DNA of 64,000 bases from Oscillospiraceae bacterium. GTDB taxonomy: Bacteria > Bacillota > Clostridia > Oscillospirales > SIG627. This document shows, one piece after another, positions 16,780 to 38,931 of the stretch; position 1 is the first letter of the stretch, and every line of letters starts with the position of its first letter. The stretch is from the NCBI GenBank assembly GCA_015063605.1, contig SVTV01000004.1, positions 1 through 64,000 on the forward strand, written 5' to 3'. The notes under the pieces are model-generated. The model saw only the letters and a program-made list of their open reading frames with translations, did no database searches and was not told where the DNA came from. The translations under genes and the position numbers were made by a program.

Positions 16780-16808
16780 TTGACATTTCACATGGATGGA
16801 TTTATAAT
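16780..16808 (+). promoter_or_regulatory. perfect-consensus SigA promoter for the amidohydrolase gene
   Basis: TTGACA (16780-16785), 17 bp, TATAAT (16803-16808): an exact match in both boxes, about 55 nt before ATG 16869. Because the core promoter is so strong, the palindromes just upstream or nearby may act in repression. Confidence 0.85.
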
Positions 16809-18952: not shown

Positions 18953-18981
18953 TTGACAAATTCGTTTTCACATGATATAAT
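18953..18981 (+). promoter_or_regulatory. perfect-consensus SigA promoter for the sortase-CotH operon
   Basis: TTGACA (18953-18958), 17 bp, TATAAT (18976-18981). No further promoter or terminator is obvious until after 27447, so seven genes probably share this start. Confidence 0.85.
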
Positions 18982-18988
18982 TCCATAT

Positions 18989-19089
18989 AACCGGAACGAG
19001 TATTATTTTAAAGTCCGTATATCATAAAGTCCGGCAAAAAAAATAGTAACTCGAATAATTAATGCAGGCATTTTTATGGAGGTGCTAAA
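18989..19089 (+). promoter_or_regulatory. structured 5' leader with pseudoknot-like pairing
   Basis: In the roughly 100-nt leader, CCGGA (18991-18995) can pair with TCCGG (19030-19034) while CGAGT (18997-19001) can pair with ACTCG (19049-19053). The two helices interleave, giving an H-type pseudoknot layout. There is also a direct repeat AAAGTCCG. A strong ATGGAGGTGC ribosome binding site follows. It matches no riboswitch class I know; the helices are only 5 bp, so chance is possible. Confidence 0.35.
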
Positions 19090-19629
19090 ATGAAAAAAGT
19101 TATAAGCATAATAGCAGTTGTTGCTCTTGTTATGTCCCTTGCAGTTTGTGCAAATGCGGCTCCCAAGGATGACATCATCGCTGCTATCAAGGCTGCGGTT
19201 CCCGCTGATGTATACGCTGATTACGAAGCTATCATCTCTAACACACTCGATCAGATCGAAGTTACTTCTTCCGAAGCTTCCGAGATAATCAAGATCGTTA
19301 ACGAAACAAAGAGCGAGGTTAAACTCGATTCTTCTTCTGTTGCTGATCTCTCCGGTGCTGAGAAAGATGTTCTCGCTTCCAAGATCACCGAAGCTGCTGC
19401 TGTTGTAGACCTTAAGGTTTCCGTTGACGCAGGCAAGGCTGATGCTGATGAGATCGTTGTTACAGTTGCTAAGACATCCGGCGAAAAAGTTGTATCCTTC
19501 GAGACTGATCCCGTTAAGAAGACAGGCTTTGAACTCAACACAACCGCTATCATGGCTGTTTCTGCTGTAGTTCTCGCTGCTGCAGCTGCTGTTGTTTTCG
19601 GAAAGAACGCTAAAGTTTTCTCCAAATAA
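19090..19629 (+). CDS. secreted surface protein with C-terminal anchor, likely sortase substrate
   Basis: 179 aa. Signal peptide residues 1-23 (MKKVISIIAVVALVMSLAVC, cleavage near CANA-AP). The mature part is Ala/Val/Asp/Glu-rich with alternating charged helical segments. The C-terminus has the layout of a cell-wall sorting signal: DPVKKTGFELN, a membrane segment (about residues 152-170) and a short basic tail KNAKVFSK. There is no LPxTG; the motif resembles a non-canonical xxKTG signal. Codon use is skewed to highly expressed codons (GCT, GTT, AAG). The adjacent sortase gene starts about 10 bp downstream, so it is the probable partner enzyme. Confidence 0.65.
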   Translation: MKKVISIIAVVALVMSLAVCANAAPKDDIIAAIKAAVPADVYADYEAIISNTLDQIEVTSSEASEIIKIVNETKSEVKLDSSSVADLSGAEKDVLASKITEAAAVVDLKVSVDAGKADADEIVVTVAKTSGEKVVSFETDPVKKTGFELNTTAIMAVSAVVLAAAAAVVFGKNAKVFSK

Positions 19630-19638
19630 TAACACTTA

Positions 19639-20403
19639 ATGCAACCGAATATTAAAAAAGAGAGCAATCACGTCTTTGGCGTGGTTCTCTTATTATTACC
19701 CTTTATTTTTGTTTTCGGTGCAATGACCTTATTCTGTATGTTGGGCTTCGAGGCGTTTGTTGAGCGTTATCCGCTCTTCGCCCTCGTAGTCAATACAGGA
19801 CAGGACTTCATCAAAAACGACGATGATGTTATTTCCTCCCCTCCAAGCAATGATTCAACGCCTGACAATGTGTCTTCCGGCGACGCACTTCCTACTATAG
19901 ACCCTTCTTCCGGCATCGTGGATCAGATAAAAGATGCCGAAGTATTCCCTACTATAAAGTGGGGGCAGCTTTGGGCTTCTCTTTATATTGATAATTACGA
20001 TTATCTCGATAAAAATGATAAAAAGATAAACGTTTACTACGGTGATGACGATAAAATTCTCGGTAGAAGAAACAGTACCGGAATGAGTGCAACATCATTT
20101 TTTGCCGGCAAAGGCCGTACATGTATAATATCCGGTCATGTAACAAATGCTCTTTATGATCTTCGATATGTAAGTACAGGTACAAAGGTTACACTTAATA
20201 CAATTTACGGTGTTTACACATACAAAGTAACTGAGTCCACCCAATTTCACGTAGACAATTACAGAGATTACTTCAATAAAGACTACGGAAAGGACACTCT
20301 CCTGATATACACATGTTACTACCCTCCCGGTGTTAACTGGGACAAAACAGATTTCAGACATATACTTGTCTGTGAAAAGGTAAGCGGAAAGGATTGGTCT
20401 TAA
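19639..20403 (+). CDS. sortase (cysteine transpeptidase)
   Basis: 254 aa. One N-terminal membrane segment (about residues 13-37), a Ser/Asp-rich linker, then the sortase barrel: FPTIKWGQLWASLYI, GDDDKILGRRNSTG, catalytic His in IISGHVTNAL, catalytic Cys in LLIYTCYYPPG and catalytic Arg in FRHILVCEK. It resembles the B/D-like group with a C-Y-x-P after the catalytic Cys; I do not assign a class firmly. It should attach proteins bearing a C-terminal sorting signal to peptidoglycan or to each other. Its stop overlaps the next ATG (TAATG), indicating coupled translation. Confidence 0.88.
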   Translation: MQPNIKKESNHVFGVVLLLLPFIFVFGAMTLFCMLGFEAFVERYPLFALVVNTGQDFIKNDDDVISSPPSNDSTPDNVSSGDALPTIDPSSGIVDQIKDAEVFPTIKWGQLWASLYIDNYDYLDKNDKKINVYYGDDDKILGRRNSTGMSATSFFAGKGRTCIISGHVTNALYDLRYVSTGTKVTLNTIYGVYTYKVTESTQFHVDNYRDYFNKDYGKDTLLIYTCYYPPGVNWDKTDFRHILVCEKVSGKDWS

Positions 20404-21500
20404 TGAATTCATCTTCTACCGCACAAAAAAAGAATCCGTTAATGGGTTTCATCGGAATACTTTTAGTATTTCTTCTCTTTATTTCCGTCACAGCTTCACT
20501 TTATACGTATATACTTAACTTCGTTATATTTTCCGAAGATCACTATGCTTCCATAGAGATATCAGATGAATATATCGCCAAAATAAAGTCATACATTGAA
20601 GAAGAGCTTGACACAGCTACGGGTAGGTACAGCCTTCCTTATGAAATCGTTTCGGGACTTCTTTCGGACGAAGCCATAATCGATATATCTAAAGATATGA
20701 TCTTTAAAGTATACAGATCACTTCTAACCGGAACTGAACACGTGGAGACGGTGTATGATATTTCTCTTTATAAGGAAGCCATATCTGCATACATCAAAAC
20801 TCTTCCGGAAGGTCATATTCTCAGTGATCCTGCTGTGTACGAACCTCTGTTCACACGATTAGAGGAAACAATAACTTATTCACTTGATCCCATACCTGTT
20901 GCTCAGATCAAGAAATTCGTACCGGGAATATCCTCCGCAATGCAAGCAGGCAGTTCCGTTGGAGATCTTTTTATTGTTTTCGCTCTTGTTTCGGCAGTAT
21001 TAACAGTAGCCGCGATGCTTGTTCCTTACAACAAATTGCATTTGCGTTTATACTCTGTATCAGGCGCTCTCTTCGGCGCAGCAACAGTCTATTTCGTTCC
21101 CGCAGTGCTTATCTCAAACTACGACGTTCCCTCACGTCTTGCTTTGGTATCGGATTCTGCTCTAAGAACTGTGATAAGCACCGTATGGTATTCAATAACC
21201 GATTCATTGATGCTTTCTTCAACAGTATTCTTTGTTTTCACATGTATACTTGCTATTGTATCGACAGTTTACATTACTGTACACAATATAAGATCCGAAA
21301 AGGCAGAGCTTGCGATTCTGTCTGGCAACATCACAATCACAGACAGCTCATCTGAAAGCGAAAAAGTTCCGGAAGTGGCACATATCGGCGTAAAAAGAAC
21401 GCCGAAAAGGTTTATAGAACCTATAAAGGACGAAAATAATCCCGACGAAAACCGTACCAAAACGGTAAATGAAGATACAAATACTACACAAACCGAATAA
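20403..21500 (+). CDS. polytopic membrane protein of unknown function
   Basis: 365 aa from ATG 20403, with GGAAAGGA 9 nt upstream. Membrane segment near residues 15-40, a 145-residue extracytoplasmic region rich in Glu/Tyr/Ile, then three or four further membrane segments (about 188-215, 222-245, 280-305). The cytoplasmic Ser/Asp/Glu/Lys-rich tail of 70 residues is disordered-looking (ITDSSSESEKVPE, DENNPDENRTKTV). I do not recognise the family. Overlapping junctions with sortase and (by the alternative start) CotH suggest it works with them, perhaps as an export or scaffold component. Confidence 0.6.
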   Translation: MNSSSTAQKKNPLMGFIGILLVFLLFISVTASLYTYILNFVIFSEDHYASIEISDEYIAKIKSYIEEELDTATGRYSLPYEIVSGLLSDEAIIDISKDMIFKVYRSLLTGTEHVETVYDISLYKEAISAYIKTLPEGHILSDPAVYEPLFTRLEETITYSLDPIPVAQIKKFVPGISSAMQAGSSVGDLFIVFALVSAVLTVAAMLVPYNKLHLRLYSVSGALFGAATVYFVPAVLISNYDVPSRLALVSDSALRTVISTVWYSITDSLMLSSTVFFVFTCILAIVSTVYITVHNIRSEKAELAILSGNITITDSSSESEKVPEVAHIGVKRTPKRFIEPIKDENNPDENRTKTVNEDTNTTQTE

Positions 21501-21529
21501 TGAAAAGCAAATCGAAAGGAGGACAACCT

Positions 21530-24307
21530 ATGAAGCTGACAAAACGCAACCCGCGCAGGCAAGAGCTTCTTCCCGCTGTACTTCTTTCGATTTTTCTTGT
21601 TATTCTCCTTTCTCTTTTGCTTGTTCTCAACATGTATCCCTTTGCAGTAACAGACAGGCGTGAGCTGAAGGCTCCCGTGATTGAGGTAACATCGGAAAAG
21701 AGCGGACTTATTTTCGGCTCAGACTCCTTGGAAAAGCCTCTGCTTAACGATTATGAGATACACTCCGATGCATCCGATGTCATTACCTTGAAGAATCTCT
21801 CGGAAAAGGATTCCGAGATAAGCATGTTCTTCTCTTCCGATATAAAAGCCGCCATTCCCGAGGGCTCCGAAAAGCATGACTCCCTGGTGGCAGCATCGGG
21901 AAAGATAACGGTCACGCTCTCATCGGAGGAATCGGTAAATGTTTCCCTCTCGTCAAGATCGGAAAGCGAACCGTTTTTACCCGAAATAATCGTGACCAAT
22001 GACGGAAATACCGTAAGCTACATTACATCGTCATCCGATCTTCTTTCCGCACTTTCCGATACAAGCAGCACCCGTGAGGTCGTTCTGATGAACGATATAA
22101 CGGTTGAGGATGAGAACGATATCATCGTAAAAAAGAGCTGTGCCGTTTTTGTTGGAGAACATAGCCTTATAATACCCGGAAGGATCATATTTGATTATAC
22201 AGAGGAAGGCACATTCCAGATTTCCGGCGGCGAAGGTACGATAAGTGCCTCGGGCTTCATAGCGAACGCTCCTCTGTCAGCCGTTCTGATAGAATATCCG
22301 TTTTTTGATATTCCTGAGGAAAAGCTCGGCTATTATGTAACCGCAAGAAAATACAATTCGTCACGTTTGCGAGCAGTTGAATATCCCGTATATTCCGTTG
22401 AAGAGCTTACGGCACTTGCAAGCGATGAAGAATATCCGAAGCTTTTCGATACCGCCGAGATAATATTCCAAGCTCCCATCACTCTGACGGATGATATTGT
22501 ATTCAACCATGCCGTAACCCTTGATATCAACGAGGAGCTTACCGTAAACGATCATACGATATCCGTTATAACGGGATCCTCTGCATCGATAACAGTCAAA
22601 GACTCCACATCGGGAGTTGACTATTCGTCATTTATCTACGATGCCCCCAACTGCTCATTGAGCTGGAGCGGAAGGACCGCCCCCGGTCCGCTTTACGTTG
22701 CCGAAAGAATGAACCTTCTGACATACGGCGGAAAGAATCTGCGAGAGATCTACGGTATCGGAGGATACTGCATGGGTACCGTTGAATCCTTCGTAATAAG
22801 AGCCTCGGACAACCCCGTTTCCAAAGAAGATATAATTTTCACCGCAGAGGGAAATGTCCTTACCGGTTATATTTCAGATTACTCTCTTGACGAAAGCGAG
22901 CTTACGAATATAGATATTGCATACAAGGTAAAGGATTGCAAGCTCACATTTCCCGCATACATGAAGAATGATGACGGTACAGTCGATCTGACGTATGAGC
23001 CTGTGTGCACCATAACAGATACTTACGGAAATTCCAAAATATTCAGGATAAAGCTGAAACGCGGCGGAAAAGAGATCCCGGTAGTTAATATAAAGATAGA
23101 CGGCGGCGTTGATGTCCTTGCTAAAGAAGACTATCAGAACGCCGTCGTTTCAATAGAAGCCATAGGAAGATACGGCTTCGATGATCTTTACGATACAGAG
23201 ATCACCATACGCGGCAGAGGTAATTCCACATGGAAAAACTTTGACAAAAAACCCCTCAGACTTCACTTTCCTCAGGATATCTCTATCTTCGAGCTTCCCG
23301 AGGGGAAGGATTGGATACTCCTTGCAAATTACACGGACAAAAGTCTGATGCGCAACAGGATAGCCAATGAGATAGCAAAAAAGCTCGACAATCTTCCCTA
23401 CGCCGCCACTCAGTACTGTGTAGATGTATTTGTAAACGGCTCATATCAAGGCGTCTACACCTTCGGTGAAAATCTCGATGTATCACCCTCAAGAATCGCT
23501 CTTACTGACACGGGAAACGCCGATACGGGATTCCTTATAGAAATAGGCGGAGTGGATAACGGAGTACACGTCAGAAATGTAGATTTTTTCCACGCAGGAC
23601 TTATAAAATTCGCTCTCGTGAAGCATCCCGATGAGCTGACACGAACCACCTCTCAGGTATTGTTTATAAAGAATTACTTCAAGGATGCCGACAAAGCGGT
23701 AAAAAAGATGTCGGGCTACGAGGAATTCATCGACATAGATTCCGTGATCGATTGGCTCATACTTCACGAATTGTCAAATAATACTGACTCAAGCTTCAGA
23801 CGAAGCTGTTACTTTATAAAGCAACCGGGCGAAAAGCTTCAAATGGGTCCCGCATGGGATTTCGATATAGCCTTCGGCAATTTCATAGAGGATGATCCCG
23901 ATTACGATACATGGGCATGCTACACGTATCACTCTCCGGAGGAAACGAATGTGGACACAAGCAAGGATTATGTGGGAACCACATGGGGAAAATATCTTCT
24001 CTCCGACAAAGCTTTTGTCGAAAGATTCAGAGCACGGTGGCTTGAGGTAAAGGACGATATAGTTTCATCCGCCCTTGCGGAAATAGATCTTACCGCAGAT
24101 GATATCATAGAATCGGCAAATGAAAATTTCAGAGTATGGAAGATATTGAACAAACGCGTAACCCTCCAGAGAAGAGATGTAACAAAGTACAATACCTTTT
24201 CAAAGCAGGTGGATTACCTTAAGGATTTCATAGTAACACGCTCCGAATGGATGACATCTGAGCTTGACAGAATGATGGCGGAATTTGAAAACGCAGAACC
24301 AAAATAA
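21530..24307 (+). CDS. CotH-family protein kinase with N-terminal membrane anchor
   Basis: 925 aa from ATG 21530, with AAAGGAGG 8 nt upstream. One membrane segment (about residues 14-36) orients a 600-residue beta-rich region outward. The CotH kinase domain follows (about 535-925): EITIRGRGNSTWKNF, KPLRLHFPQDI, DWILLANYTDKSLMRNRIA, GSYQGVYTFGENL, and the metal/catalytic blocks LHELSNNTDSSFRR and MGPAWDFDIAFGNF. CotH proteins are atypical kinases; the spore-coat CotH phosphorylates CotB and CotG. Here the setting is a sortase operon, so the target may be a surface protein such as the 179-aa protein. The N-terminal beta-rich region is unassigned. Confidence 0.88.
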   Translation: MKLTKRNPRRQELLPAVLLSIFLVILLSLLLVLNMYPFAVTDRRELKAPVIEVTSEKSGLIFGSDSLEKPLLNDYEIHSDASDVITLKNLSEKDSEISMFFSSDIKAAIPEGSEKHDSLVAASGKITVTLSSEESVNVSLSSRSESEPFLPEIIVTNDGNTVSYITSSSDLLSALSDTSSTREVVLMNDITVEDENDIIVKKSCAVFVGEHSLIIPGRIIFDYTEEGTFQISGGEGTISASGFIANAPLSAVLIEYPFFDIPEEKLGYYVTARKYNSSRLRAVEYPVYSVEELTALASDEEYPKLFDTAEIIFQAPITLTDDIVFNHAVTLDINEELTVNDHTISVITGSSASITVKDSTSGVDYSSFIYDAPNCSLSWSGRTAPGPLYVAERMNLLTYGGKNLREIYGIGGYCMGTVESFVIRASDNPVSKEDIIFTAEGNVLTGYISDYSLDESELTNIDIAYKVKDCKLTFPAYMKNDDGTVDLTYEPVCTITDTYGNSKIFRIKLKRGGKEIPVVNIKIDGGVDVLAKEDYQNAVVSIEAIGRYGFDDLYDTEITIRGRGNSTWKNFDKKPLRLHFPQDISIFELPEGKDWILLANYTDKSLMRNRIANEIAKKLDNLPYAATQYCVDVFVNGSYQGVYTFGENLDVSPSRIALTDTGNADTGFLIEIGGVDNGVHVRNVDFFHAGLIKFALVKHPDELTRTTSQVLFIKNYFKDADKAVKKMSGYEEFIDIDSVIDWLILHELSNNTDSSFRRSCYFIKQPGEKLQMGPAWDFDIAFGNFIEDDPDYDTWACYTYHSPEETNVDTSKDYVGTTWGKYLLSDKAFVERFRARWLEVKDDIVSSALAEIDLTADDIIESANENFRVWKILNKRVTLQRRDVTKYNTFSKQVDYLKDFIVTRSEWMTSELDRMMAEFENAEPK

Positions 24308-24362
24308 GAAATAAGCACTGTACTGCTTGAAATATAAGGACAAGAAAGAAAGGCACATTAAA

Positions 24363-25580
24363 ATGAAAACAGATACATTAAGAGTCGGATTTATAGGCGC
24401 GGGCAACAGAGGCACGTCCCTTTTGACAAATATGTTCAGCGTTGAAAACGTTGTAGTGACCGCAATATGTGATCCCAATCCCGAGGCTGTTCAGGCTAAT
24501 GTAAACAGATGCAACGAAAAATACGGTGACGTTTGCACGGGCTACAGCGATTATAATCATCTTCTCGACAGCGGCAAGGTTGATGCGGTCGTAATAGCAT
24601 CCACATGGCTCACCCACGTAAGAATAGCATGTGATGCTATGAAGAGAGGCATATATGTGGGAATGGAGGTAGGTCCTGCGGGAAGTATAGACGAATGCAG
24701 AAGGCTCGTCGAAACACATGAAGAAACAGGTACACATCTTTTCCTTCTGGAAAACTGCTGCTGGGGACAGAATGAGCTCTTTATACTCAACCTTGTGAGA
24801 AAGGGCATTCTCGGAGAGCTTGTACACCTTGCAGGTGCATATCAGCACGATTGCCGTGAAATACTTCTCAGAGAATATGACAATATGGATAAGCCTTACT
24901 GCGAAAGAATATATCATAAGATAAGAAACATGGAGGGCTACCCCACACATGAGCTCGTTCCCCTGGGAAAATTCATCGGTATAAACAGCAGAAACAGATT
25001 CCTCACGCTTTCAGCCGCTTCCTCCAAATCCGTAGGCTTCCAGAAGCTTTACAAGGAACAGCGCGGAGAAACATTCCCCGACAGAATAAATCAGGGTGAC
25101 GTCGTTTCCACGCTCATCCGATGCGCAAACGGCGAAACCATATCCCTTACATACGATACCGCTCTTCCCAGACCTTATTCCAGAGGCTTGCGTGTACAAG
25201 GCTCAAACGGTATATGGATGGAGGACAACCGTTCCATATACATTGAAGGAAGAAGCCCCAAGGATAAATGGGAGCCCGATGCGGAATATATGACGGAATT
25301 CGAGCACCCCCTCTGGACAAAATACCGCGAAAGCGAAATCCAGGGCGGTCACGGCGGCATGGACTATCTTATGCTTTGTGCATTTGCCGATTTCGCTTCG
25401 AGAAATGCCCGTCCTCCCATAGATGCATATGATGCGGCTACATACATTTCCATCGCATGTCTCGTTGAGGATTCACTTTCCATGGGCGGCGCTCTCGTAA
25501 CAGTTCCCGACTTCACCGACGGAAAATGGGTAAAGAAGCGCAATTACGAAACGGATAATCTTTACGACATAAATATATAA
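24363..25580 (+). CDS. Gfo/Idh/MocA family oxidoreductase
   Basis: 405 aa from ATG 24363 (AGAAAGG upstream; the in-frame start at 24327 would add 12 residues). Rossmann motif VGFIGAGNRGTSLLTNMF, then ICDPNPEAVQANVNRC. The family EKP-type motif appears as GMEVGPAGSIDEC, an altered form. The C-terminal domain carries HDCREILLREYD and HGGMDYLMLCAFADF, typical of sugar or glycosidase-like members. It likely oxidises or modifies a sugar with NAD(P). It lies 55 bp after the CotH gene, so probably in the same transcript. A second unrelated family member is at 59048-60079. Confidence 0.82.
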   Translation: MKTDTLRVGFIGAGNRGTSLLTNMFSVENVVVTAICDPNPEAVQANVNRCNEKYGDVCTGYSDYNHLLDSGKVDAVVIASTWLTHVRIACDAMKRGIYVGMEVGPAGSIDECRRLVETHEETGTHLFLLENCCWGQNELFILNLVRKGILGELVHLAGAYQHDCREILLREYDNMDKPYCERIYHKIRNMEGYPTHELVPLGKFIGINSRNRFLTLSAASSKSVGFQKLYKEQRGETFPDRINQGDVVSTLIRCANGETISLTYDTALPRPYSRGLRVQGSNGIWMEDNRSIYIEGRSPKDKWEPDAEYMTEFEHPLWTKYRESEIQGGHGGMDYLMLCAFADFASRNARPPIDAYDAATYISIACLVEDSLSMGGALVTVPDFTDGKWVKKRNYETDNLYDINI

Positions 25581-25637
25581 ATTAACGGCAGAGTCCAAAA
25601 AAACATACGGACATTGACAGAAAGGCACGGTCATAAT

Positions 25638-26474
25638 ATGGCAGCAAAAGAAAAAGAGATTAAAATAACAGAAAAAGATCTTGCGGATTTTTCCGTACTT
25701 TATCCCGAAATGACAAACGAACAGCTTACCGAGCTTGCACTCGGTGACAAGGCGGGTATAAACTTCTCATCCTACGCTTCATCTTCCCTTTCCCCCGAGG
25801 AAATGAAAAATGCAAGAGAAGCGCTCATCGACTCCAAGAAGAGAAACACGGCTCTTTTCGAGTGCCGTTACTTCACTCCCGCCGCTCACGTTCTCGCATC
25901 CCTTTTCAATCCCTGCGAAAAGCTTGCGGATGCACTCATAAACGAAAGCATCAAGGGTCTTTCCTATAAGGATATAGGACGCTTCTCCTCCTCCAACGGA
26001 GTTCTTCAGGGTAAAAGCGACAGAGTATACGCTTCTTACCTTGCGGGAAGAGAAATAATTTCCGGAATGAATAAGGAAGAAAATGTTCTTCCGGAGAAAT
26101 ATGCGGATATGGCAAAGAAAATAACCGTAAAGGAAAACCTTCTCAACACGGAGATCTTCTTCAATATGTGCGGTGAATGCAATATATACAAGACCTTCGG
26201 CAAGAACGGTCAGGACATTATGAAGGGAATAACTCTTTCCGAAAAGTCCTCCTTCATCGTACGCGATAAAATGGTAGGCTACAACGAAAGCTACTTCTCC
26301 ATAGCTTTGGAATTCGAAGGTCTCACCGTATCGCTCGCCGTAGTTCCCAACACATCGGCAGTTAAGGGAAATGCGGCTGTATCGCTTATTTTCGCAGATG
26401 AAATTGCAGTATACGTAGATTCCGCAACGAAGTACTTTGACACCTCTCTTCTCACAGCGGGATTGAAGAGCTGA
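25638..26474 (+). CDS. hypothetical protein in the sortase-CotH operon
   Basis: 278 aa from ATG 25638 (GAAAGG upstream). No signal peptide or membrane segment. N-terminal helical part with ITEKDLADFSVLYPEMTNEQ and an Ala-rich middle; the last 90 residues look beta-rich (YFSIALEFEGLTVSLAVVPN, VSLIFADEIAVYVDS). I recognise no family or motif. Cytoplasmic by prediction, and 25 bp before the MBL gene. Confidence 0.55.
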   Translation: MAAKEKEIKITEKDLADFSVLYPEMTNEQLTELALGDKAGINFSSYASSSLSPEEMKNAREALIDSKKRNTALFECRYFTPAAHVLASLFNPCEKLADALINESIKGLSYKDIGRFSSSNGVLQGKSDRVYASYLAGREIISGMNKEENVLPEKYADMAKKITVKENLLNTEIFFNMCGECNIYKTFGKNGQDIMKGITLSEKSSFIVRDKMVGYNESYFSIALEFEGLTVSLAVVPNTSAVKGNAAVSLIFADEIAVYVDSATKYFDTSLLTAGLKS

Positions 26475-26499
26475 TCGGAAATAAGGAACAATCTGATAT

Positions 26500-27447
26500 A
26501 TGGCAAAAAGAAAAAATAAAGGTAACAGCCTTATAACCTCCACCATCATGTTCTTTCTCGTGATGGCATTCCTTCTTGTGAAGGAATTCGTAACGGATTC
26601 CGTAAGTCTCGGAGTTACCAACAGAGCGGAGGCGGCGCAGCAATTCGAGGAGGGTGCAAGCCTTCTTGAGGTGCATTTTCTCGATGTGGGTCAGGGTGAC
26701 GCAACTCTGATAGCCGTTCCCGATGAAAACGGCGGAAGCGATTTTATCCTTATCGACTGCGGAGAAAGCTTTGCAAAAAGCGATCTTCTTTACGCTCTCG
26801 ACGAATATAACGTGGATGTAATAGATCTTTTCGTTATTACCCATCCCCATTCGGACCACATGGCAAATGCATCGAGCGTATTAGAGGAATATGACGTGGA
26901 AAAGATCCTCATGAACGATCTTGAGGTCAGCCACTCATTTTACAAGAATTTCGAAAGCGCGCTGAAGCTTGAGGATGCCGAGGTGGTATATCCCGCGATC
27001 GGTGATAAATATGCCTACGGAGACCTTGTGCTTACAGTCCTCGGTCCCGGAAAGGATATGGACACAGAGGATCTCAATAATATGAGTATCGTCCTCAGAG
27101 CAGATTACAACAAGCGTTCCTTCCTTCTTATGGGAGATGCGGAGGCTGAAAGCGAATACGATCTCATGGACAGATTCATGCAGATCAAAGCCGACGTACT
27201 GAAGCTGGGACACCACGGCTCATCCACCTCCTCCGCAGAGGATTTCGTTGACCTTGTAATGCCGATGTACGCCGTTGCTTCCTGCGGTTTGGACAACGAA
27301 TACGGTCATCCCCACCGAGAGGTGGTAAGCTATCTCAATAAGCTCCGCATAACGCTTTTCCGAACAGATACGGACGGATATGTTTCCTTCTACACCGACG
27401 GAAACAAGCTTGTGTATCTCACTGAAAATAATACCGCAGCAAAATAA
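26500..27447 (+). CDS. membrane-anchored ComEC/Rec2-like metallo-beta-lactamase hydrolase
   Basis: 315 aa. One N-terminal membrane segment (about residues 11-30) places the enzyme outside the cell. The MBL fold is complete: LEVHFLDVGQGDATLIAVP, FILIDCGE, metal site VITHPHSDHM, SIVLRADYNKRSFLLMGDAE, LGHHGSSTSSAE and GHPHREVVSYL. Free-standing proteins of this group resemble the C-terminal nuclease-like part of ComEC, but substrates are mostly unknown; nuclease or phosphoesterase activity is possible. Last gene of the operon. No strong terminator follows before the next promoter at 27501. Confidence 0.8.
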   Translation: MAKRKNKGNSLITSTIMFFLVMAFLLVKEFVTDSVSLGVTNRAEAAQQFEEGASLLEVHFLDVGQGDATLIAVPDENGGSDFILIDCGESFAKSDLLYALDEYNVDVIDLFVITHPHSDHMANASSVLEEYDVEKILMNDLEVSHSFYKNFESALKLEDAEVVYPAIGDKYAYGDLVLTVLGPGKDMDTEDLNNMSIVLRADYNKRSFLLMGDAEAESEYDLMDRFMQIKADVLKLGHHGSSTSSAEDFVDLVMPMYAVASCGLDNEYGHPHREVVSYLNKLRITLFRTDTDGYVSFYTDGNKLVYLTENNTAAK

Positions 27448-27589: not shown

Positions 27590-28540
27590 ATGGATTTTTT
27601 ATCAACAGTAAAAGGTTCTCTTCTCGAAGGCTTTTATCCCGCAGGCTGGGATCTTGAGAAGATAGACAAGTGCTGCTCTAACAAGCCCGAAGATATAACA
27701 GTTCGCCAGGATTTCTGGAACAAGGATTTCGACATAGTTCCTTGTGATAACGTATACGATTTTGACATGATCCTCGGTCATGAAATAGCTCTCGAAATAA
27801 AGAGCTGCAAGGACGAAGGACGCAAGCTCGTTATGATCCTCCCCGTAGGTCCTATGGGTATGTACAGATGGGCAGTTTACTTCCTCAAGGCTTGGAAAGT
27901 TTCCTGCGAGCACGTTTACGGCTTCAACATGGATGAGTGGAGCGATGCCAACGGCAAGACTCTCGATCCCTCCAACCCCGGTTCCTTCCAGTACGCTATG
28001 GAAAATGCTTTCTACGGTCCTCTCGGCGAGCTTACAGTTCCCGTTGATCAGAGAAACTTCGCAACTCAGGACAATCTTCCTACATATCCCAAGAAGATCG
28101 CTGCTCTCAGAGCTGAAGGCGCTAAGCTCGTTACAGTATTCGGTATCGGCAGAATGATGCACATCGCTTTCTGGGAACCCCATTTTGCGGCTGACTTCGA
28201 AACAGAAGAAGAATGGAAGAAGCAGTGCTACCGTCTCGGCGCAAAGCTCCATCCCATGACAATCGAACAGAACGCTCTCACAAGCTTCAAGAGCCGCACG
28301 ACTCTCGTTCCTTGCAGAGCTAATACAATAGGCCCCGGACTCTTCCTTTCCTCCGACAAGATCATCGGCGGATGCGACGGTGCTTTCAACCGCGGTATGC
28401 AGTGGCAGGGACTTTCCCTCTGGACAACTCTCCGTTACGGTCCTTCCATGTGGATTCCTTCCTCTTATATGCCCACTCTCCCCGGCAAGATAGTATTCTT
28501 GAAGGAGCTTGCTGGTCCGTTGGTAGCAGAGTGCAACTAA
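27590..28540 (+). CDS. divergent NagB-like glucosamine-6-phosphate isomerase family protein
   Basis: 316 aa, longer than NagB (about 250). NagB/RpiA-fold landmarks: [28 protein letters not shown] (compare NagB NMDEY) and [13 protein letters not shown] (compare GIGxxGHIAFN-P). The His and Glu of the second motif are kept, but the residue equivalent to the catalytic Asp before G-H is Met and the Gly is also lost. Activity may therefore differ from deamination. Codon bias suggests strong expression. AGGAGA lies 8 nt before ATG 27590; monocistronic between its own promoter and three hairpins. Confidence 0.7.
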
Positions 28541-30000: not shown

Positions 30001-33000
30001 TTATTTCTTCTTTTTCGTTGCAAAGAATATTCCGGCACCAGCAACAGCTATTACGGCGATAACAATTATCACGATAATTACCGTATTACCCGAGCCTTCG
30101 GAAGGCTTCTCCTCATCCTCCGCATCCTCATTGGAAGCGGAAGTAAAGGTAAGAATATTCTTTCCCTTGGAAACGCTGAGAGTAACCGTTGAGTTTTCGC
30201 TCAACGCAACTTCGTTTCCTGCGAACATTATGTCTTTAGCATCTTTAGGCAATGTGATGACAACGTCTGCGGAAGCATCCGCTGTTATAACAGCCTGACC
30301 GTTAAAGTTAACGGATATATCGGCAGCCTTTGTGGAGGTTGCAATTACCGCCCCGTTATAAGAAAGGGATGTTCCTCCGCTCAGAATGTATCCGTCATAG
30401 CCTTCACCGTCATCACCGAAGATTCCCAAGAACTCACCGTCGCCCTCTAAGGTCACCGAGGATGCGCTGTCGGTATGAGAGGCATTCGCTTTCTTATTGT
30501 TGAAAAGTATATGGTCAAGCTTTGTTCCGTCGCCGTATGTTACGGACGCATAGGAAAGATCTTCATCTCTGTATGATGATCTGACCTCTGCTGTCTGAAG
30601 TATTTCAACATCCGTATTCAATTCAATGTGAACAAGACCCAGCTTATCGGCGGCTTCGCCTGCCGCACTTTCATTCCATACGAATTTCAGATCATAATTG
30701 CCCTTTTCAAGTGTTACATTTTCAAATGAAACGGTATCGAAATCAACATATCCGTCTCTGTATCCGTCAAAGGAGCCTACCTTTGTGCCGCCTATGTATA
30801 CATCTGCACCGCCGTAGCTCTTGCCTGTAAGATAACGAAGCTTTACGGTATAGTTACCGCTTGCTATGATATCGATGGGAACTGAAACGGAATCACCGAT
30901 AGATGCATCACGTACGAGAAGTGTATCGAAAATATCAACATGGGCAACCTTAGCGGTAGCCGTCTTGCCTACAAGCTCAAAGGTATCGGCAAAATTCTTG
31001 AACTCGATCTTTCCGTTTGCGGGAATATAAGGAGTAATTACCGCAAGATATTCCTGCTCCTTTGTCTTATTGGCATTTGTTACATCAATAATGGGATGCA
31101 ATGTGGTTTCGTATTGACCGTACTTTATATTGAGCTTGTCGTCAAAAGCGAAATTAATTCCGACGCTGGCGCCGTTGTAGACGACGGAAATATTTCTCTT
31201 ATCGCTGTTAACGGATTGGGAACTGAAACCGTTGATGTTGAGACGCCAGGTGTATTCGTGCTGCTCTGATGCTCTCAATTCATCGCGTATTATGAAATAA
31301 GGCATACCAAAGCCGACCATAACGTATGTTCTGGCAAACCTTGAAAGTCCGAGAGCTTTAGGATAAGCACTTGAAGCATCTCCCTCGGAGATTGCGAAAA
31401 ACGGTGAAGTCAGTTTTTCCTTCAGGCTTCCTCCGCCCAAGGATGTCTGACCTTTGCCATCTATAAATATGGTGTTATGACCGCCTGTCGTTCCGTAAAG
31501 ACTTTCCGCACCGCCGTCAAAGCTGTGGTAACCGGGGTCACTTGCAAGCCATGCACCGTTCATTGCAAGTACGAAGCTGTTGGCATCATAATGGCAATGT
31601 CCCATCTTACTTCCGCTGGAGTTAGCAAAGAGAACGGGATCGGAAGCTTTCCAGCTCGGTCTGAATATGCCCCAGCCGATAACGGGAATGTTGAAAGTAA
31701 GATAATCATCGGATGGAAGCTGTGCTTCTACCTTATTGCAGGTGTATATCAACGCATCAAGTCCCGAGGAGCTTGATTTGTTTCTTACAAGATAATATGC
31801 CGCAAGGGGATTCTTTGTAAGTCTGTACATTGTGGAAGCGGTAATGAAGAAGTTACCTGTGGAGGGAGAGCAGTCTGCAATGTTGACACTGAGTCCCTTG
31901 GAGTTTTCCGCACCGGTAACGATCCATTCCATAAGGAACTCGGAAAGATATTTATGCTCGATCACGGACATATCTCCGAAGGTCCTTGCGTAATGGTCAA
32001 GAGCAACTATCATGTACTCCACACCGTATGAGGTGTACATAAGGCCTTCATGATTTGCGGAGGTTAGTCCGGAATCCATAAACCAGTTGAAAAACTCAAG
32101 CGCCTTATGAAGATATACGGAGCATTTTATTTCATTTGATTCATAAATGGTGCTGCATGCTGTCATAAGAGCCGCACAGCGCAGCATCTGACCGTTATCG
32201 GGAGATTTGGAATGAATGTCAATATAAAGCTTTGACATAGCATAGTTTATCAATGCTTTTTCGGTAGCTTTCTTATCATCCTCGGTAAGAAAATCGTAAA
32301 GCAGATCATAGACAGCACAAACACCGTAGGTCATGTGTGCCGTATCAAGACAGGTGCTTCCCGAGCCGTAATAAGGATCTGACCATGCCGTCCAGGTCAC
32401 TACCTTTCTCAGCCACTTGAGAGCCATATCCGCATATTCCTTCTTTTCGGTAAGGACATACGCAACGGCAAGAGTCTTCATTCTCGTTTCTATCTGTCTT
32501 GTAAGAGCTGTCCAGTAAGGATACTGATCCGATCCGCCGTATTTCGGGGGATTGGCAAGCTTTCCGGGCATATCGGTGGGAACATTGAAGGTAAGAGTGT
32601 GACCGCCGTAATATGAAATAGAGAAATCCTTTTCAATAATGTACTTTTCCGCGGAAGTGATAATATCGCTTGTATAAGCCGCCATTGATCGGCCGTTATA
32701 CATTACCTCAGTATCATTCGCTCTCTCCTTGAAATCAGACAATTCTTTTTCCGTAAAGTAAAGACGGGGATGAGACTTTTCTTTTGTAACGAACTTTTCC
32801 ACATTATCATCTTCGGTCACGGTCTTTATTACGGCTTTGTCATATGCTACCGTTCCCATAGCTTTGCCGCCGGAGTAAAGAAGAAGTGTCATCGTTGCGG
32901 TATCGTCGGGAGCGATACCGATTCCCGATATAGTCTTCCATTCACCGTTTCCCGCACCGTTGAATACCTTAACGCCTACACGCTTTCCGGAGTTGTTCCA

Positions 33001-33372
33001 GAATTCAAGGTACAATTCTCCGCCGCTTCCGTCAAGGACCCACGCATCGACATATGCGGAATATGCCTGACCGGGTGTTGCGGGAATGGGCTTCATACGG
33101 AATCCTGCACCCTTCGTGTCACTGTCATCAGTGATGACCGCATATGATTTTCCGTCACTGGGAGTTTTATCATCGAATCTATACGATGCCGTTCCCGTAT
33201 AGATCTCCCATTTGTCGGGAGGAGATGTTTTTGTGGCGGGATATTCGAATGACTCGAAAAACACCGTACCGTCACTGCTTTCTCCGTCTGCCGTTACTAC
33301 CGTAAACGGAATAAAGGGAAGGCAAAGACACATTACCAATGCAAGTGATATGATTCTTTTTATCTTGTTCAT
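30001..33372 (-). CDS. secreted, membrane-anchored heparinase II/III-like polysaccharide lyase
   Basis: 1123 aa from ATG 33372. Signal peptide residues 1-28 (IISLALVMCLCLPFIPFTVV). An N-terminal beta region (about 35-190) looks like a carbohydrate-binding fold; an (alpha/alpha) toroid follows (200-560, LYFTEKELSDFKERAND, CLDTAHMTYGVCAVYDLLYDF); then a heparinase II/III-like beta domain with GHCHYDANSFVLAMNGAWLA and YGTTGGHNTIFIDGKGQ; then beta-rich modules. The C-terminus has an acidic linker, a membrane segment and a KKKK tail, so it is cell-attached. Substrate is probably an acidic glycan, not resolved. An in-frame TTG at 33384 is an alternative start. Confidence 0.78.
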   Translation of the reverse strand: MNKIKRIISLALVMCLCLPFIPFTVVTADGESSDGTVFFESFEYPATKTSPPDKWEIYTGTASYRFDDKTPSDGKSYAVITDDSDTKGAGFRMKPIPATPGQAYSAYVDAWVLDGSGGELYLEFWNNSGKRVGVKVFNGAGNGEWKTISGIGIAPDDTATMTLLLYSGGKAMGTVAYDKAVIKTVTEDDNVEKFVTKEKSHPRLYFTEKELSDFKERANDTEVMYNGRSMAAYTSDIITSAEKYIIEKDFSISYYGGHTLTFNVPTDMPGKLANPPKYGGSDQYPYWTALTRQIETRMKTLAVAYVLTEKKEYADMALKWLRKVVTWTAWSDPYYGSGSTCLDTAHMTYGVCAVYDLLYDFLTEDDKKATEKALINYAMSKLYIDIHSKSPDNGQMLRCAALMTACSTIYESNEIKCSVYLHKALEFFNWFMDSGLTSANHEGLMYTSYGVEYMIVALDHYARTFGDMSVIEHKYLSEFLMEWIVTGAENSKGLSVNIADCSPSTGNFFITASTMYRLTKNPLAAYYLVRNKSSSSGLDALIYTCNKVEAQLPSDDYLTFNIPVIGWGIFRPSWKASDPVLFANSSGSKMGHCHYDANSFVLAMNGAWLASDPGYHSFDGGAESLYGTTGGHNTIFIDGKGQTSLGGGSLKEKLTSPFFAISEGDASSAYPKALGLSRFARTYVMVGFGMPYFIIRDELRASEQHEYTWRLNINGFSSQSVNSDKRNISVVYNGASVGINFAFDDKLNIKYGQYETTLHPIIDVTNANKTKEQEYLAVITPYIPANGKIEFKNFADTFELVGKTATAKVAHVDIFDTLLVRDASIGDSVSVPIDIIASGNYTVKLRYLTGKSYGGADVYIGGTKVGSFDGYRDGYVDFDTVSFENVTLEKGNYDLKFVWNESAAGEAADKLGLVHIELNTDVEILQTAEVRSSYRDEDLSYASVTYGDGTKLDHILFNNKKANASHTDSASSVTLEGDGEFLGIFGDDGEGYDGYILSGGTSLSYNGAVIATSTKAADISVNFNGQAVITADASADVVITLPKDAKDIMFAGNEVALSENSTVTLSVSKGKNILTFTSASNEDAEDEEKPSEGSGNTVIIVIIVIAVIAVAGAGIFFATKKKK

Positions 33373-33440
33373 TTCTTCACGCAAAGCAGAAGCTTTTCTC
33401 CTGTTTTATTTTTTGTATACCTTCTCGGAAGATATCGTGA

Positions 33441-38772: not shown

Positions 38773-38931
38773 ATAATTACTAACGTTATTATAAACGTTT
38801 AGCAAAAAAATGTCAACAATAAATTTGATTATCGTCGAAAAACAATACATCTTATACATCAAAAAGCTCATTCACAGACTAAAAGATGAATAATGAATAA
38901 AACGAAACATAGACATTAAGGATGATCTTTC

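Follow-up and report, generated by a model that had tools for sequence, protein, structure and literature searches.

A conserved three-gene sortase cassette of Clostridia with a hairpin inside the sortase reading frame

Introduction

In Gram-negative bacteria, the PEP-CTERM/exosortase system comprises a protein-sorting transpeptidase that is tied to exopolysaccharide loci and serves many substrates per genome. The cassette described here, composed of a candidate surface protein (A), a sortase (B) and a membrane protein (C), resembles this system in the association of protein sorting with polysaccharide loci, but the enzymes are unrelated and exosortase hosts are Gram-negative. The best sequence relatives of sortase B are class D sortases (e.g. 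2ln7), with which it shares the catalytic residues and a single N-terminal transmembrane segment (TM). It differs from class D sortases in scoring far below their curated cut-off and in a predicted substrate motif that is mostly the non-canonical (I/V)KxTG, and its cassette includes a constant partner (C) and a hairpin within the ORF.

In M. gnavus, the srtB4 gene is located in a CPS cluster together with LCP and tyrosine phosphatase genes, and deletion of srtB4 abolishes capsule display (PMC13121745). Some of the cassettes likewise have their sortase gene among CPS and tyrosine phosphatase genes, and putative sorting-signal proteins are found near several M. gnavus sortases, resembling the position of A beside B (PMC13121745). 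SrtB4 differs in being named a class B sortase and in having an LCP gene in its cluster, and the likeness is one by description, so that the parallel is suggestive only (PMC13121745).

Regulation of a sortase/surface-protein operon by a stem-loop terminator has been described for pil1 of Streptococcus gallolyticus, where the terminator lies 5' of the operon and is governed by the length of a leader peptide (PMC3894217). In contrast, the hairpin reported here separates the substrate from the enzyme and falls within the ORF of the latter. CotH-type kinases are found in Gram-positive Pel operons together with a poly-P polymerase, DUF4956 and DUF4832 (PMC7112168). The CotH protein encoded next to our cassette is similarly a CotH-type kinase outside spores and near envelope genes, but poly-P polymerase, DUF4956 and DUF4832 were not recognised beside it.

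Results

Organization of the seven-gene stretch

The window, by which we mean the whole analysed stretch of 64,000 nucleotides of an Oscillospiraceae bacterium (GCA_015063605.1, contig SVTV01000004.1), had been read from its sequence as containing a seven-gene sortase-CotH operon behind one consensus promoter. All seven ORFs (18953-27447, promoter included) are present in the same order on the + strand with small gaps (Table 1), and domain searches upheld the sortase, CotH, Gfo/Idh/MocA and MBL assignments. None of A, C and the 278-aa protein reached a family cut-off in the domain-model searches, and no Rfam match was obtained in the window. The promoter upstream of A is an exact TTGACA-17-TATAAT match, as had been claimed. 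Three such matches occur in the window against 0.01 expected, the other two being located at 16780-16808 and 38788-38816. Two TAATG overlaps had been noted between neighbouring genes; the one between B and C (20401-20405) reflects true tight coupling, whereas the one between C and CotH (21500) is probably spurious (see below). Elsewhere in the window, a 1127-aa secreted protein [30001-33384 (-)] has a C-terminal TM and a KKKK tail and lacks a TG sorting motif.

Table 1. Positions of the features of the seven-gene stretch in the window.
Feature	Position	Strand	Remarks
Sigma-70-type promoter	18953..18981	+	12/12 consensus, extended -10
Gene A, 179-aa secreted protein	19090..19629	+	Signal peptide, C-terminal sorting signal, SD GGAGG
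Gene B, class D-like sortase	19639..20403	+	His167, Cys226, Arg240; one N-terminal TM
Terminator-like hairpin within the sortase ORF	~19661..19690	+	About -14 kcal/mol, tail TATTATTACC
Gene C, 365-aa membrane protein	20403..21500	+	Four predicted TMs
CotH-type kinase with signal anchor	21530..24307 (ORF from 21500)	+	SD 21515-21522; outside the conserved cassette
Gfo/Idh/MocA oxidoreductase, GH109-type C-terminal domain	24363..25580	+	Outside the cassette
Unknown 278-aa protein	25638..26474	+	Outside the cassette
ComEC-type MBL hydrolase, one N-terminal TM	26500..27447	+	Outside the cassette

Genes A, B and C form a conserved cassette

Separate searches with A, B, C and CotH were carried out in 58 relatives, followed by 197 genomes of the order and 392 genomes of the class. 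About 25 A-B-C loci, which include related loci that are not independent samples, were recovered, and they represent a dozen families within the class. Among the 58 relatives, A, B and C are adjacent in five genomes (G004, G006, G009, G015 and G043). The wider searches added cassettes in a further eighteen (G005, G020, G026, G039, G062, G065, G109, G113, G179, G187, G188, G216, G236, G264, G287, G306, G404 and G537), some of them complete and others broken at contig ends. The gene order A-B-C is almost universal in the loci read. A dedicated sortase with one small substrate and a membrane protein is a conserved unit across relatives, in agreement with the sequence-only reading, and of the seven genes only these first three constitute it.

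Protein A has the features expected of a sortase substrate. A signal peptide is followed by a helical region, a small strand region and a sorting signal, which consists of VKKTG as the xxxTG motif, a hydrophobic TM segment and the basic tail GKNAKVFSK. A TG upstream of the C-terminal TM is present in 18 of the 25 A proteins and lacking in seven; the motif is (I/V)(K/R)xTG in 11 of the 18, PxxTG in three, canonical LPFTG in two (G287 and G404) and of another type in the remaining two. The codons of A are the most biased among the 49 genes of the window (ENC 33.4, compared to 51 for B and 51.8 for C), which is consistent with the suggestion that the substrate is small and probably abundant. Codon bias was also considered as a feature of such cassettes in general and dropped, as A has the lowest value of the three genes in only 10 of 22 cassettes. 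Of 22 cassettes, 16 have a GGAG or GAGG site ahead of A, and three have one ahead of B. A structure model of A (pLDDT 71) gave no match below E 0.2 to PDB folds. In G236, a single 444-aa ORF (L090, G236:C17, 9084-10418) encodes a fusion of A with the sortase; the TG motif and TM lie midway along the protein, and the fusion hints that A and the sortase cooperate. An A-like protein with an IKQTG motif is encoded 3' of C in L085 (G264:C112, 1788-2327), where it replaces or adds to the upstream copy.

Protein B contains a sortase domain (PF04203, 36.4 bits, cut-off 26.6), and the catalytic residues H167, C226 and R240 are invariant across 17 sequences. The best NCBIfam sortase model is class D, yet with 35.8 bits B remains below the curated cut-off of 165 and is therefore labelled class D-like only. 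Among solved structures, the B profile has its best relative in 2ln7, which is one of the LPXTG-site transpeptidases (E = 1.2e-26). In the genome of the window a single further sortase was found, at G000:C47:55298-55795, and the sortase profile gave no match in the Lachnospiraceae CE91-St56 genome. In L081 (G158:C32, 9236-12558), a degenerate sortase lies between two C-like membrane proteins; its catalytic TC is replaced by TS (LYTSKDES), and it is possibly a pseudo-sortase.

The sequence-only reading had further proposed a pilus-like structure, for which neither a pilin-type domain nor a pilus-sortase signature was found. Polymerisation of A by the sortase into such a fibre would agree with a small abundant subunit next to a dedicated sortase, and the B profile additionally matches class C (pilus) sortases. 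On B itself, however, the class D model outscores the class C model, which reached 23.5 bits against a cut-off of 160. A had no match to a pilin or Ig-type family in the domain-model searches, and it is a single short subunit in loci where no tip or basal pilin was recognised. We consider a pilus-like fibre improbable.

Protein C is predicted to have an N-terminal TM, an outer helical domain of ~160 aa and three C-terminal TMs. Its structure model is of moderate confidence (pLDDT 74) and gave nothing below E 0.2 against PDB folds. In the class and order searches, C matches with a detected sortase beside them are nearly all directly adjacent to it, in about ten families. C-like proteins were also found with no sortase detected beside them in L096, L097 and L098 (G431, G489 and G291), and C may be part of a wider family of membrane proteins.

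CotH is not linked to the cassette

The CotH protein of the window matches PF08757 with 155.3 bits (cut-off 23.8, E = 3.7e-45), and one N-terminal TM is predicted, in line with the description of the protein as membrane-anchored. A search against PDB sequences gave no match. The sequence AAAGGAGG at 21515-21522, 7 nt ahead of the ATG at 21530, is a Shine-Dalgarno (SD) sequence of CotH's own, and the homologue in G010 begins exactly at the residue encoded by this ATG (query residue 1 aligned to residue 11). The start of CotH is thus probably at 21530, and the TAATG overlap with C a coincidence.

CotH was found within 6 kb of the cassette (or up to the contig end) in only one of the 25 loci, namely that of the window. 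Adjacency confined to this genome had been named in the sequence-only reading as an outcome that would speak against the pathway, and this outcome was observed. Five genomes with a cassette (G006, G026, G043, G109 and G179, the latter a single contig) have no CotH match at all, and in nine others (G004, G005, G009, G015, G020, G039, G113, G187 and G188) cassette and CotH are located on different contigs. Presence of both in the same genome carries little meaning, since CotH is widespread (109 of the 197 genomes searched at order level). The genus of the window is represented by a single genome in the search set, so that a recent association of CotH with the cassette at the genus level is conceivable. 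The CotH relatives in 13 loci have no neighbour in common, and genes 5-7 (Gfo/Idh/MocA, unknown and MBL) show no linkage to CotH or the cassette at the further loci that were read. The sole CotH neighbour seen in common with the window is a NagB-like gene in L059 (G009:C48, 986-5198), which is convergent with the CotH relative at a distance of 83 bp and 68% identical to the window's gene at 27590-28540.

These results bear on the proposal that all seven genes form one pathway in which A is phosphorylated by CotH during or after export and then anchored or polymerised by the sortase. In the window the genes are contiguous on one strand with short gaps behind one strong promoter, the C-CotH junction has no clear terminator, and CotH retains the family-invariant residues D741, N751, W776-D777-D779 and F782-G783-N784, of which the last six were invariant among the homologues aligned here. 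Against this stand the linkage of CotH to the cassette in the window alone, the at least five cassette genomes that lack CotH, the absence of conserved neighbours around CotH relatives and the separate SD and start of CotH. In addition, Ser/Lys-rich repeats of the CotB/CotG type are absent from A. As a general system the seven-gene pathway is contradicted already, and we regard it as highly improbable altogether; CotH seems to be a chance neighbour of the cassette. In the literature that we covered in part, no paper was found that unites CotH and sortase in one system.

A hairpin is conserved inside the sortase reading frame

The sequence-only reading had overlooked the hairpin at the start of the sortase ORF (Table 1). 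In the window it is a strong stem-loop (z -3.4) located 31 nt 3' of the A stop codon, with a weak T-tract. Hairpins were scored in the cassettes if their folding energy reached -12 kcal/mol and the tract after them had five or more T in nine, and 120 other in-operon junctions of the same loci served as controls. Such hairpins were present in 18 of 23 cassettes, 7-65 nt past the A stop and within the first part of the sortase ORF, and in 12 of 120 controls (Fisher p = 6e-11), a contrast that is conservative because one of the 12 control matches corresponds to a cassette hairpin in antisense orientation. At -20 kcal/mol, the numbers were 11 of 23 cassettes and none of the 120 controls (Fisher p = 2e-10); the hairpins span about a dozen lineages, and related loci among them are not independent. 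Five cassettes lack the hairpin, and at B-C junctions it was mostly not seen.

The hairpin sequences are unrelated between lineages, and their position is constant at about codons 8-20 of the sortase. The 3' arm and T-tract coincide with a conserved Pro and hydrophobic residues of the protein. When compared with 300 synonymous recodings, the native hairpin was among the strongest 5% in 17 of 22 cassettes and stronger than all recodings in eight, so the protein code does not explain the hairpin. The element combines the sequence features of an intrinsic terminator, a stable hairpin and a T-rich tract, beyond coding constraint. In the part of the literature covered, we did not find such an in-ORF hairpin described.

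The simplest reading of the hairpin is attenuation, by which partial termination would probably hold the sortase and C at a low level. This reading is based on the conservation of the hairpin, the GGAG or GAGG site that precedes A more often than B and the codon bias of A in the window. A hairpin that stabilises the 3' end of the mRNA, or marks a site of processing, and so protects the A message would predict the same outcome, more A than B, and several hairpins, including that of the window, have mediocre T-tracts. Many others have strong T-tracts, however, and the tail falls recurrently on the same hydrophobic codons, which makes a stabiliser rather unlikely in our view.

Polysaccharide genes flank part of the cassettes

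Genes for Wzz and a BY-kinase were found within 6 kb of seven of the 25 cassettes (G005, G020, G065, G113, G179, G236 and G404), six of which also have CpsB; these families were confirmed by Pfam. Near four more cassettes (G006, G015, G043 and G109), rml, glycosyltransferase or polymerase genes are present. None of 14 CotH loci has Wzz, BY-kinase or CpsB nearby. In the window no capsule genes are close to the cassette, and the Wzz gene of this genome is on contig C34.

By analogy with SrtB4, the cassette could serve capsule attachment, in which the sortase would link a polysaccharide-bearing or polysaccharide-organising A and B would be needed for capsule display. The Wzz/CpsD/CpsB genes at seven cassettes, the rml, polymerase or glycosyltransferase genes at four and the loss of capsule display without SrtB4 (PMC13121745) speak for this possibility. 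The window cassette has no capsule genes as neighbours, a polysaccharide link is seen at fewer than half of the loci, and clear polysaccharide context is missing at about half of the cassettes. Direct capsule attachment is thus an option that we take seriously and still judge somewhat more likely to be wrong than right.

Discussion

What is new here is a sortase cassette of wide occurrence in which a hairpin has been conserved within the reading frame of the enzyme. Anchoring, attenuation, a role of C and a capsule role are inferred from this arrangement, and we propose that A-B-C is probably a self-contained surface-anchoring cassette with an in-ORF attenuator. Many cassettes of relatives lie in capsule or exopolysaccharide loci, and the likeliest role would therefore be to organise or hold surface polysaccharide.

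According to this model, A would be driven by a strong promoter and ribosome site, exported and retained via its C-terminal sorting signal. The class D-like sortase B would cleave A at the (V/I)KxTG-type motif and join it to the cell wall or another envelope acceptor, and the membrane protein C would assist B. The hairpin in the first ~20 codons of B would pass only some of the transcripts, so that B and C would be made at a lower level than A. Transcription of CotH and of the three genes after it would probably result from run-through, with no ancestral pathway in common with the cassette. A more far-reaching version, which we put forward tentatively and would rate a little below direct capsule attachment, is that Clostridia hold or organise their capsule by means of a widespread, so far undescribed three-gene cassette, which would be the Gram-positive equivalent of exosortase systems and in which an in-ORF intrinsic terminator would hard-wire the substrate-to-enzyme ratio.

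The analysis removes a tempting story of sortase-CotH phosphorylation as unsupported. If the proposed reading is right, capsule biology in Clostridia would gain a link to a dedicated sortase with an abundant substrate of its own, and an unusual transcription-stop-like signal would have been kept within a coding frame across distant families. Such an in-frame signal would make the substrate-to-enzyme ratio directly testable.
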